A stretch of DNA of 64,000 nt, from assembly GCF_039233145.1 (NCBI RefSeq), contig NZ_CP136419.1, positions 2,454,001-2,518,000 of the forward strand, written 5' to 3'. The number at the start of each line of letters is the position of its first letter. The first letter of the stretch is position 1. Below are positions 45,781 through 50,121 of the stretch, in pieces. A program made the translations under genes and the position numbers. Source of the stretch: Moorella humiferrea. Lineage in GTDB: Bacteria; Bacillota; DSM-521; Neomoorellales; Neomoorellaceae. The notes under the pieces were generated by a model. That model saw only the letters and a program-made list of their open reading frames with translations, had not been told where the DNA came from and did no database searches.

Positions 45781-46242
45781 CTAATACCTTTCCAGGATGG
45801 CCGGGATCTGCTCCGGCGTCAGCCTCCCGTAGGTTTCCTCATTGATCATCATCACCGGAGCCAGGCCGCAGGACCCCAAGCAGGCCACCGTTTCCAGGGT
45901 AAAGCGGCCGTCGGCAGTAGTTTCATTCTTACCTATTCCCAGGGTTTTAGAAATGGCTTCTAAAAGCTTGGCCCCGCCCCGGACGTGACAGGCCGTCCCC
46001 TGGCAGACGCGGATGATGTTGCGGCCGCGGGGTTTTAAATGAAACTGGGTGTAAAAAGTCGCCACCCCGTAAACCCGGCTGAAGGGTATCTTCAACCTCC
46101 GGGCGATCACCCGCATGGCCTCCTCCGGCAAATAGCCGTAAATCTCCTGGGTCTCCTGGAGAATGGGGATCAGCGCGCCTTCTGTAGCAGCATAGCGCGC
46201 CAGAACCTCCTCCAGAGCCCCGGCCTTGGCGCTCCCATCCAT
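45781..46242 (-). CDS. HylC/NuoE-type [2Fe-2S] subunit
   Basis: About 153 residues with a helical N-terminus and a thioredoxin-like [2Fe-2S] domain; the ligand cysteines are in CQGTACHVRGGAK and ACLGSCGLAPVM. It completes the HylC-HylB-FdhA set. ATG 46242 (GTG 46245 is one codon earlier) has only a weak ribosome site. The plausible native promoter region (46246-46300, TTGGCA-N17-TTAGGT) is bounded upstream by an IS607-type element, so the element may influence its transcription. Confidence 0.88.
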   Translation of the reverse strand: MDGSAKAGALEEVLARYAATEGALIPILQETQEIYGYLPEEAMRVIARRLKIPFSRVYGVATFYTQFHLKPRGRNIIRVCQGTACHVRGGAKLLEAISKTLGIGKNETTADGRFTLETVACLGSCGLAPVMMINEETYGRLTPEQIPAILERY

Positions 46243-46309
46243 CACAACCCGTTTAGACCTGGTTCAAAAAACCTAACAATTACTGACACATTGTGCCAAT
46301 CATTATTAG

Positions 46310-46587
46310 GCGGCCTCCCCATGACCAGGCTTTTCGCTCCTTTCGGATTTGATTTGCCTGCCCCTGGGAGCAGGCTGCGCGACAGGGAGACCTCGGCCCC
46401 GGGAGTCTCACCCGGACGGGAGAACGGCACTTCACGGGCGCAAGGCGCGGCCTTAAGGAGAACCATAAAAGTTCTCGCCTTGCGTTGACCGTCAAGTGGT
46501 CCAGCACTTTATTCTTTCAGGTGCCGGACGCCTCCGCGCGATCTGTTAGATGCGGCCTACCGGTTTGTCCGATACCGGCTAACGGGG
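46310..46587 (-). ncRNA. Candidate TnpB guide RNA (omega RNA) and element right end
   Basis: This 278-base stretch holds no convincing gene. On the minus strand it continues the tnpB transcript and contains several GC-rich hairpins, for example GAGAAC / GTTCTC and GCCTGC / GCAGGC. TnpB guide RNAs come from exactly this place, the 3' end of tnpB and the right end, with the guide read from flanking DNA. Location and structure support the call; the precise ends are unknown. Confidence 0.45.
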
Positions 46588-48297
46588 TCACCTACTTGAT
46601 AAAGCGAGCTGCTTCAAGTCGTGCCAGACAGAATAAAAGGATTCCTGTTTATAGCGGTCTAAGCCGTTATGAACGGAAACCTTTTCGCCCAGCCGCATGA
46701 TTTGCTGCTTCACCTTTCGGGTCATCCCTTTTCCTTCCCCAGGTAAGGAATTCGCCTTTTGGTTCAGCTTTTCTTTAATGGCTTGGATTTTTTGTTTTAA
46801 CTCTTTGGTGATGTGTTCTTTAAAACCTATTGCCCGGCGGGCGATTGCCAATGCGGCGGCATGGTGGATAGTTACCCCGTACCGCTCCATGTATTTCCAA
46901 TAGCCGATGGTGGAAGTGTGAGCTGGCCGGACCGGCTTTACGCCGACGCCTTCTTTGTAGGCTTTACGGATAATAGCTTCGGTTATCTTCCGGTAAGGAA
47001 AATTGGCCGCCATGCGGTTGAACTTTTTATCGGTGTCCAGCCGGTCTTTGCCGAAGCCCAGGTCTTCTATAGCGATAGATTTGCCTAAAACTCTGGCGAT
47101 GTTCACCACTACCTGGGCCAGAACGCCGATGAGGTAAGTACGTCTAAAACTGCGGCTGTAAGCCAGTTCCGGTATCTTGAGGTAAAGGAAACCGTTCGGG
47201 TGTACTATCGTCTGAAACTCTCCGGCAAACTTGTGCAAGGCTTTGGGATAAGGAACAGTAAAGCCTTCCGGCCAGGGCTCGGGCTGGCCAAAATAATTAA
47301 CGTTAGCCAGAGCTACCCCATCTGGGTTGGTGTCTATCCCAAGGTAGCCGCGGTTGGGGTCGGTCACCAATTCAGGCGCCGTCATGGTGAAGACGATATG
47401 AACCCTGTACCGGTCGTCCCGGCATCTAATCAATTCAACGTTATAGGGTGCGCCGGAAAGAAGCAACCCCCACACCTTGAGCCGGTGTTTTTCCGGCAGC
47501 CAGAGCTCTCCTTCCACCCGCGGTGCCCTGGTCATTATGGGCCTTCCTTTGCTGTCAGTACCTTTTTGCTCGGATAAATGGGAAATAGTGACTGCCAGGG
47601 TAAATCTCCCCTCCTGGTAAGCCACCTTCATGTTGGGGTTGCCGCCTTTTGTTTCGTCGCCCCGGGCGTATAACCGGTTCTGCCGGGTGTGGCGCCATTC
47701 TTCCCGGCCGGCCTTGCCCCGGCAGATCTGCCGCCATAAGGCCCGTCCCCCGAATACTACCTTGGGGATAGTGCCGTTGGCTTCATGTTTCTGGAGTTCG
47801 GCCAGTTTGGCGGCAAGCTTTTTGACCCGGGCTTTGCGGCCGTGGAGAATACGTTTGGTTTTCTCGATTTTTGCCGGGTCTTTGGCCTTGATCGCTTTGT
47901 CCAGGACCTTTGCAGCCCAGCGGAGTTTCTTTTTGGCCCGGCTCAGTTTGGTTTCTGTTTCCTCGATTTCTAACGCTAGGAGTTCCTTTTGCGATTCTAT
48001 GACAGCCCTCGCTTTCAGTATGGCGTCGTCACAATAGCGGGAGTTTAAGCCGAATACCCGCTGGCCTTCTTGTTTGAGTTCTTCCCGGGAACGGCCTTCC
48101 ATAAGCCGGTTGAAGGCCCAGCGCTCGCAGGCGCAGAAAAGCCGCATCTCAGTATCCAGCGGGTCTTCATCCCCCCGGCCCCATTTCTTGGACCGGTAAG
48201 CGGGGTAAGCTTCCGGAAACCACTCGCCGCAGATGGTATACTTAAGACCGCCGTTAAGTTCACTCATTCTCTTTTTGTTCTTTCGCTGTTTCTTCAT
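46588..48297 (-). CDS. tnpB: TnpB-type RuvC-fold protein, atypical third motif, no zinc ribbon
   Basis: This 569-residue protein is longer than typical TnpB (about 400). RuvC motif I is GYLGIDTNPDG (Asp322), motif II is IAIEDLGFGK (Glu411). Motif III, normally DxNAA after a four-Cys zinc ribbon, reads YGVTIHHAAALAIARR (around 473-488) with no Asp and no Cys-x2-Cys pairs. A basic coiled-coil-like region lies at 95-175. TnpB is an RNA-guided nuclease. This one belongs to a divergent TnpB-related group and may have a moved catalytic acid or be nuclease-impaired. ATG 48267 is another possible start. Confidence 0.85.
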   Translation of the reverse strand: MKKQRKNKKRMSELNGGLKYTICGEWFPEAYPAYRSKKWGRGDEDPLDTEMRLFCACERWAFNRLMEGRSREELKQEGQRVFGLNSRYCDDAILKARAVIESQKELLALEIEETETKLSRAKKKLRWAAKVLDKAIKAKDPAKIEKTKRILHGRKARVKKLAAKLAELQKHEANGTIPKVVFGGRALWRQICRGKAGREEWRHTRQNRLYARGDETKGGNPNMKVAYQEGRFTLAVTISHLSEQKGTDSKGRPIMTRAPRVEGELWLPEKHRLKVWGLLLSGAPYNVELIRCRDDRYRVHIVFTMTAPELVTDPNRGYLGIDTNPDGVALANVNYFGQPEPWPEGFTVPYPKALHKFAGEFQTIVHPNGFLYLKIPELAYSRSFRRTYLIGVLAQVVVNIARVLGKSIAIEDLGFGKDRLDTDKKFNRMAANFPYRKITEAIIRKAYKEGVGVKPVRPAHTSTIGYWKYMERYGVTIHHAAALAIARRAIGFKEHITKELKQKIQAIKEKLNQKANSLPGEGKGMTRKVKQQIMRLGEKVSVHNGLDRYKQESFYSVWHDLKQLALSSR

Positions 48298-48925
48298 CCA
48301 GCTCCACTCCCGCGATTAGTTCCCGAAACCCCTGCCTCACTTTTTTGCCGCCCCTGGCCCCGTATAACCGGGCAGAAAATGACGTGACTATGGCCAGCAA
48401 ATCTTTCACCAATTCGCTTTGAGCGTCTTCCGGCTCTTTTTCCGCTATGGCGATTATTTCTACGCCGCAATATTTTAAATGACGCTCAATGTACGAATAT
48501 CCGAAACGGGCCAGTCGGTCGGGGTACTCGATAATAAGTTTCTTATACTCACCCTGCTCGGCTAACTTGAGTACGTTGGCCAGGCCACGGCGCTTCTGGT
48601 TCAAGCCGCTAGCCACGTCCGCAAATTCCGCCCTGATGGTAAACCCGTGTTCTCCAGCATACTGGCGCAGCCGTTCCATCTGCCGCTCCAGGTTGCCGGC
48701 GTCGGCCTGCTTTTTGGTGGACACCCGGGCGTACAGCACGACTGCCTCGCGTTCGCCAGTCAATTGGCCGGACTGTAGAAGCTTATTGAGTTCATCCATG
48801 GAGTACCGGCGCTGGCCTCCAGGAAAACGCACGGGCTTGATTAAGCCCCGCTTTTCCCAGTTGCGCAGGCTGTTAGGATGGACGCCCAGTTTCTTTGCCG
48901 CTTTGCTGATGGTTAATAGTTCCAT
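48260..48925 (-). CDS. tnpA: IS607-type serine recombinase TnpA
   Basis: The 221-residue protein has an N-terminal MerR-like helix-turn-helix (LTISKAAKKLGVHPNSLRNWEKRGLIKP) and a resolvase domain whose catalytic Ser sits in VLYARVSTKKQ near residue 69, with the paired Arg region ADRLARFGYSYIERHLK-like (EYPDRLARFG). This N-terminal DNA-binding order is diagnostic of IS607. It cuts and joins the element as a serine-linked intermediate. It overlaps tnpB by 38 bases, implying coupled translation. Confidence 0.93.
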   Translation of the reverse strand: MELLTISKAAKKLGVHPNSLRNWEKRGLIKPVRFPGGQRRYSMDELNKLLQSGQLTGEREAVVLYARVSTKKQADAGNLERQMERLRQYAGEHGFTIRAEFADVASGLNQKRRGLANVLKLAEQGEYKKLIIEYPDRLARFGYSYIERHLKYCGVEIIAIAEKEPEDAQSELVKDLLAIVTSFSARLYGARGGKKVRQGFRELIAGVELDEETAKEQKENE

Positions 48926-48943
48926 AACTTTATGGTAAGCTTT

Positions 48944-49025
48944 TTGTTATGTTTTGTTATTATTTATTAATCTGTTGGTAACTGCTACATACCTCCTTAA
49001 CGTTGTTATCGCAATTTATTGTTAT
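48944..49025. repeat. TTGTTAT repeats at the tnpA end of the IS607-type element
   Basis: Four copies of TTGTTAT at 48944-48950, 48954-48960, 49003-49009 and 49019-49025. The first two are exactly 10 bp apart, one helical turn. They lie in the AT-rich region upstream of tnpA and are plausible TnpA binding sites at the element end. No gene is seen in 48926-49089. Confidence 0.5.
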
Positions 49026-49089
49026 TATAACATTAATTCTGGGTAATAGTGAGTTAATTCTTTGCTCTAAATTTTACTATTTTGTATAT

Positions 49090-50121
49090 TTAATTATGGA
49101 TGGGGCGCAGCAGCCCCTTTGAAACATCATTTAGATCGCCGCAACCGGTGAGGCGCATGGCTACGGCCAAATCGTCGGCCAGGGCTTCAAGCTGCAACCG
49201 CACGCCCACGGCACCGCCGCCAATGGCGGCCACGGCCAGGGGCCGGCCAACCAGGACCGCCCGGGCACCCAGGGCCAGCATTTTCAAAACGTCTACGCCC
49301 GAGCGCACCCCACCGTCGGCGAGGACGATTATTTTATCGCCCACCGCCGCGGCGATCTCCGGCAGCACCGCCGCCGTCCCCGGAGTGTGATCCAGGGCGC
49401 GGCCGCCATGGTTGGAAACGACGATGGCCGTCGCCCCGCCCTCCACCGCGGCCTCGGCATCGGCCACCGTCATGACGCCCTTTAGGATCAGGGGCAGGGA
49501 AGTAGCACCCGCTATCTTAGCAATCTGCTCCACCGTCTTGGGTTCCACCAGCTGGCCGGCGCGGGTCATGTTCACCAGACCGGCGGCGTCAACGTCGATC
49601 CCCACGGCTACGGCACCGGCGTCCTCGGCGCGGCGGATGAGGGCCATTATTTCCATGTCTTCCCACGGTTTGATGACCGGAATCCCCCGCCCCCCGACGG
49701 CCTTGATAGCTTTAAGCCCGGCGTCCATGAGCTCCGGCAGGGGGCCGTCGCCGGTAAATGCCAGGCTTCCGGCTTCAACTGCCCCCAGGACGAAGGCCCG
49801 GGCCAGCTCCTCCTCGCTCACGCGGCCCTGAAAATTGACCCTGGCCCCGGCCACGGCCGCCCCCAGGATGGGAAAGGCAAGCCTCTTGCCGAAGAGCCTT
49901 AAACTCAAGTCCTGATCCTTATGGTCGTGGAGAACGCGCATGTTGACCTGCCAGGCCGCCAGGGCGGCAATGTTGTTGCGAAAAGCCGCTCCGGTGCCGA
50001 TGCCGCCCATGCCCGGCACGCCCGAGGGACAGCGCCACCCGTCGCACACCGGGCAGACGCGGCAGATGCCGTCGAGAAGCACCCTGGCCCGTTCACGAAT
50101 AGACGCAAGACTTGGCTGCAT
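49090..50121 (-). CDS. FMN-dependent alpha-hydroxyacid oxidase family protein
   Basis: From ATG 50121 (AAAGGAG upstream) the protein is 343 residues. The FMN barrel is clear: PLILKGVMTVADAE with the phosphate-site Lys, VVSNHGGRALDHTPGT with the catalytic His, and LADGGVRSGVDVLKMLALGARAVLVGRP. The N-terminus has four cysteines (ICRVCPVCDGWRCPSG) that are seen in clostridial members and may bind a cluster or metal. Relatives oxidise L-lactate, glycolate or other 2-hydroxyacids. In a strict anaerobe oxygen is unlikely to be the acceptor. No operon partner is obvious. Confidence 0.85.
   Translation of the reverse strand: MQPSLASIRERARVLLDGICRVCPVCDGWRCPSGVPGMGGIGTGAAFRNNIAALAAWQVNMRVLHDHKDQDLSLRLFGKRLAFPILGAAVAGARVNFQGRVSEEELARAFVLGAVEAGSLAFTGDGPLPELMDAGLKAIKAVGGRGIPVIKPWEDMEIMALIRRAEDAGAVAVGIDVDAAGLVNMTRAGQLVEPKTVEQIAKIAGATSLPLILKGVMTVADAEAAVEGGATAIVVSNHGGRALDHTPGTAAVLPEIAAAVGDKIIVLADGGVRSGVDVLKMLALGARAVLVGRPLAVAAIGGGAVGVRLQLEALADDLAVAMRLTGCGDLNDVSKGLLRPIHN

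Follow-up and report, generated by a model that had tools for sequence, protein, structure and literature searches.

An IS607-type element encoding a zinc-ribbon-less TnpB with a D-E-H RuvC triad inserts at Shine-Dalgarno sites just upstream of start codons

The element described here lies in a 64,000-nucleotide (nt) stretch of Moorella humiferrea DNA (assembly GCF_039233145.1, contig NZ_CP136419.1, positions 2,454,001 to 2,518,000 of the forward strand), hereafter the window, whose own numbering is used throughout; all features are on its minus strand. Alignment of four genomic copies, whose flanks diverge outside the shared segment, places a whole IS607-type element at 46258..48991, with ends that are uncertain by the AGG/GG core that they share. 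The tnpA gene (48260..48925) encodes a 221-amino acid (aa) IS607 serine recombinase that combines PF00239 with a MerR-like helix–turn–helix and matches NF033518 above the cut-off (E=5.6e-59). The tnpB gene (46588..48297) encodes a 569-aa TnpB without a zinc ribbon, in which the RuvC residues are Asp, Glu and His (D-E-H). Its product matches TIGR01766 above the cut-off (E=6.5e-11) and NF040570 below it (E=8.8e-20; 71 bits against a cut-off of 100), and the N-terminus matches TIGR01765 (E=2.6e-10). The left junction reads GGAGG and the right one CCAGG; both have a GG core, and no target duplication or other repeat is present. The left GGAGG (48992..48996) is a host Shine-Dalgarno (SD) sequence and, as the element-free junction in congeners shows, the insertion has parted it from the start codon of the host gene directly downstream (45781..46245). 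A preliminary description of this DNA had assigned the element to IS607, which the tnpA match bears out, and had placed both genes correctly; its extent of 46310-48925 falls short of the whole element.

The genome contains four tnpB copies at 96–100% identity and one diverged relative, and exactly four right ends of the element. The three further copies are 96–99% identical and have no stops, and relatives are encoded at 55 loci in other genomes; the tnpB reading frame is thus real. tnpA is damaged or shortened in two of the genome's copies. Ratios of nonsynonymous to synonymous substitution (dN/dS) are 0.15–0.59 among the four genomic tnpB copies, the top value being that with the fewest changes, and 0.15–0.39 among ten Carboxydocella copies. 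A complete genome of the Carboxydocella type (G071; loci L020-L058) has 19 right ends but lacks a tnpA of this type, its best candidate being 37% identical. Purifying selection on recent tnpB copies, including those in a genome that lacks a tnpA of this type, indicates that the TnpB protein itself is kept by selection. Six congeneric genomes (L143-L148) carry the window's junction minus the element. We conclude that this IS607 family is real, mobile and widespread. The genome further contains another, diverged IS607 element (L005/L006; G000:C1:1878566-1880624), with a 495-aa TnpB that is also D-E-H. A first scan of viral sequences returned no relatives, and a second scan, seeded on a diverged member, returned 43.

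Insertion is at GGAGG, shortly ahead of start codons; the element has a single orientation relative to the gene and does not disrupt the downstream frame. Of 40 distinct left flanks, 38 read GGAGG, a count that leaves out the L044 row, which has a false left end. On the other side, the start codon of an open reading frame of at least 40 codons is found 5–13 nt past the right end in 48 of 55 cases, most commonly at 8 nt, whereas the same test succeeds at 29% of the other GGAGG occurrences within the flanks and at 20% of random positions (p about 5e-19). A whole-genome scan for right ends gave 27 of 34 that are start-adjacent; this set overlaps the 55 cases, and its misses are mostly in draft genomes. 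Ten downstream genes analyzed with Pfam show the expected domains from the N-terminus onward. The genes downstream include aspS (aspartyl-tRNA synthetase), pth (peptidyl-tRNA hydrolase), era and ddl (D-Ala-D-Ala ligase), and several are usually essential. GGAGG ahead of the gene start is visible in two of the empty sites (L143 and L144). A sister clade of TnpBs that has Asp in place of the His (loci L094-L101, L124-L126 and L154-L173) shows the same SD/start pattern at 12 of 13 left ends and, after removal of two unrelated pattern matches, at 24 of 26 right ends. SD targeting is therefore common to two TnpB clades, irrespective of whether they have Asp or His. In the 495-aa (L006-type) sister subfamily the ends differ and no GGAGG/SD flank is seen. 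This preference for SD sites, which is the main feature of the element and was missed in the preliminary description, is strong and apparently unreported; a literature search of incomplete coverage found no paper linking the transposon-adjacent motifs (TAMs) of IS607 TnpBs to ribosome-binding sites. Two side observations concern individual loci: one genomic copy (L004) has GGAGG on its left, no gene start on its right, where a tRNA-like sequence follows nearby, and, for the Asp-bearing clade, every tnpA copy found in G169 is broken.

The region that runs from tnpB to the right end (46258..46590) is predicted to specify a structured RNA scaffold (omegaRNA). In a common fold of 34 distinct pre-right-end regions, pairing holds in 96.8% of cells and double changes occur in 139 cells, compared with 48.5 (standard deviation 6.6) after shuffling and no more than 42 in slid controls. 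The final helix joins CCTGGT (46324..46329) to the terminal ACCAGG (46258..46263), which is the right end itself. In two sequences (L053 and L059) the arms are CCAGGT and ACCTGG, a compensatory change of U-A to A-U that may be a single event. Because this helix closes exactly at the element boundary, the transcript that follows, the guide, would be host sequence. In the window, the architecture of TnpB systems and the four-copy comparison together predict a guide at 46238..46257, made up of host leader and gene start (TCTAAACGGGTTGTGATGGA). With GGAGG on the left and a start codon beyond the right end, guides of the family would thus read gene starts. A guide RNA 3′ of tnpB, as suggested earlier, is well supported as a prediction by this covariation, and Rfam gave no RNA family match, RAGATH-18 included, in 45800-49400. 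The right end (46258-46263) also puts an AGG at SD distance from the host start codon, within the predicted stem.

TnpB is assigned to its family by sequence, by a Cas12/TnpB fold and by a structured RNA that ends at the right end, and departs from it at two points. The zinc ribbon, located between RuvC-II and RuvC-III in many, not all, TnpBs, is absent: TSTIGYWKYMERYG stands in its place and no CxxC pair occurs in the protein. In addition, the triad is D-E-H rather than D-E-D. The RuvC-I Asp322 (codon 47332..47334) is invariant in sets A1, A2, A3 and A6, and the RuvC-II Glu411 (codon 47065..47067) in A1-A3, with Asp in one phage relative. Motif III is VTIHHAAALAIARR, without Asp, and the Asp position is occupied by His478 (codon 46864..46866). 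This His is present in every subfamily member for which the RuvC-III region was read and is invariant in the H clade; it recurs in L006 and its kin in three other genomes (L071, L072 and L136) and in the diverged L122, L138, L128, L075 and L077. In the sister clade (L097, L099, L124, L125 and L126), Asp falls in exactly the His478 column without a gap. The two groups have in common a TSxIGxxKYxxxYxxS motif and the lack of a zinc ribbon. Canonical zinc-ribbon TnpBs align in the same register, with DRVGALNIAAK of L090 against HHAAALAIARR in the element. Phage relatives mostly keep the Asp, one residue earlier in one group, and two have His. Across eight H-type rows, the majority of which are highly diverged, only 45 columns are invariant, and these include Asp322, Glu411 and His478. 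The tree places the H rows in one clade at 59/56, without deciding between single and multiple origins of the His or between Asp and His as the ancestral state of the zinc-ribbon-less group. As a separate observation, one relative on a viral contig (L178:2935-4356) has a D-D-H triad, with Asp for the RuvC-II Glu and His in RuvC-III.

These alignments indicate that the RuvC-III Asp is neither moved nor randomly lost, and that His478 is substituted in place. The preliminary description had the intact Asp322 and Glu411, the missing motif III Asp and the missing ribbon right, and the second of these can now be refined to an Asp-to-His change. Of the two explanations it pointed to, a relocated catalytic residue is not supported, as canonical and sister TnpBs align gaplessly with Asp at His478 and no other conserved acid is suitable. 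A loss of cutting is not borne out by the invariance of the whole triad (Asp322, Glu411 and His478) or by the purifying selection acting on recent tnpB copies. Two candidates for a relocated acid were considered and rejected. Glu494 lies beyond the end of helix 477-490, and most of the Asp clade has Glu there as well; Asp421 lacks conservation in both the Asp clade and L077.

A first structure prediction, based on 24 close relatives, had a predicted local distance difference test score (pLDDT) below 50 at residues 458-497 and was not used for the active site. A second, based on 49 sequences with phage relatives added, has a mean pLDDT of 82.5 and values of 91-95 around residues 461-490. In this model His478 is at the N-terminus of helix 477-490, and strands 318-324 and 407-411 have Asp322 and Glu411 close to their ends; the modeled placement of the triad is as expected for an RNase H-type site. 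Foldseek searches with the model gave 35 matches at E<=0.001, nearly all of them Cas12-type and with Cas12f, Cas12m and TnpB among them; a HMMER search of the Protein Data Bank sequences found nothing beyond a weak Cas12f1 match.

The arrangement is probably that of an IS607 element specialized for SD sites, with a guide-loaded TnpB, a GGAGG TAM and an active D-E-H nuclease. In such a model, TnpA would recombine at the AGG/GG core that the GGAGG target has in common with the CCAGG right end, an exchange from which the left junction would emerge as GGAGG and the right as CCAGG. TnpB would load the RNA, with a guide formed by the flanking gene's leader and initial codons, and GGAGG as TAM. Such a TAM is plausible because IS607 TnpBs from 22 strains have measured TAMs of AGGAG or GAGGG (PMC11061315); the text of that paper mentions neither ribosomes, nor SD sequences, nor start codons. 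Loss of the element would rejoin GGAGG with the gene start, TnpB would cut this empty site, and repair from an element-bearing copy would restore the element. His478 may replace the third Asp as a metal ligand, and we lean toward an active enzyme, comparable to DEDH Argonautes, on the basis of purifying selection and the invariance of the triad. We consider the broader proposal, that a widespread TnpB clade with an active D-E-H site, a DNA-cutting equivalent of the DEDH Argonautes, homes genome-wide to translation-initiation sites using the SD as TAM and gene starts as guides, to be evenly balanced. Two points weigh against the model: Cas12m2, whose triad begins with His (H-D-D), lacks cleavage activity (PMC10442227), and the right-end AGG would be sequestered in the closing stem, which leaves translation of the downstream gene unaccounted for.

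The strongest alternative is that the D-E-H TnpB makes no double-strand cuts and is an RNA-guided binder like TldR or Cas12m, which would occupy vacated gene starts or aid re-insertion by TnpA. In favor of this, TnpB has a non-canonical triad, Cas12m2, whose triad includes a His, binds without cutting (PMC10442227), and the guides span gene starts, at which a bound protein would act as a repressor. However, Asp322 and Glu411 are invariant in diverged relatives, whereas TldR arose by RuvC inactivation (PMC13418256); the His is likewise invariant rather than drifting, and D-E-D is the triad of the sister clade, which shares this lifestyle. We consider a binder unlikely, if deserving of attention. 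It is less likely again that His478 creates a one-metal or altered-metal site and that TnpB merely nicks DNA or merely processes its own RNA. His has fewer ligand atoms, an argument also made for Cas12m2 (PMC10442227), and processing by TnpB of its own mRNA into omegaRNA is described in PMC10278001, but in catalytic Argonautes, proteins with an RNase H fold, the tetrad is DEDH/D (PMC10772731). An active D-E-H nuclease remains our preferred reading of TnpB. IS607 recombinases prefer GG cores and insertions inside genes would be lost, but it is very improbable that the SD pattern reflects survival of insertions ahead of genes after hits at any GG core, since 38 of 40 sites have GGAGG, more than GG, other GGAGG sites are start-adjacent in only 29% of cases, and the L006-type subfamily, with other ends, has no such flank. 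Selection may nonetheless sharpen the pattern.

If the model is correct, transposon target choice, the TnpB TAM and the ribosome recognition sequence would be tied together, suggesting a reason for purine-rich IS607 TnpB TAMs such as AGGAG. The in-place Asp-to-His change amounts to a clean natural experiment on the third RuvC ligand required, given a sister clade that has the same lifestyle but bears Asp. The family may also offer a compact nuclease, from thermophiles among others, with a putative TAM that precedes many bacterial genes.

Several known systems can be compared with the element. The PIWI domain of Argonautes (DEDH/D), from an unrelated family, offers an analogy alone: it has an RNase H fold whose last catalytic residue is either Asp or His, with cutting by both types. 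TldR repressors, which are not mobile and have mutated RuvC residues, do not match, as Asp322 and Glu411 are invariant and the element is mobile with tnpA; nor do Fanzor and Ealt TnpBs, in which the RuvC-II Glu has moved beside the zinc finger with a DPG motif, as Glu411 is canonical and the motif here is DTNPDG. Cas12m2 resembles the element's TnpB in its fold (8hhl) and in having a non-canonical triad that contains His, but its His is at the first and its Asp at the second position, it has a zinc finger and it is CRISPR-associated. ISDra2 TnpB has a zinc ribbon and a D-E-D triad and is shorter, but agrees with the element in fold (8exa and 8h1j were matched), in RuvC order and in an RNA ending at the right end. 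The TIGR01765 (tspaseT_teng_N) group has the N-terminal match, no zinc ribbon and the TSxIGxxKY motif, and its Asp clade is on SD sites; the strongest matches read have Asp, not His, at RuvC-III. Finally, the ISFba1/RAGATH-18 IS607 TnpB is about 390 aa and has an RNA that Rfam did not find at our element, but like it belongs to an IS607 transposon and is followed by a 3′ reRNA, with a measured SD-like TAM and RuvC-dependent cleavage (PMC11061315).
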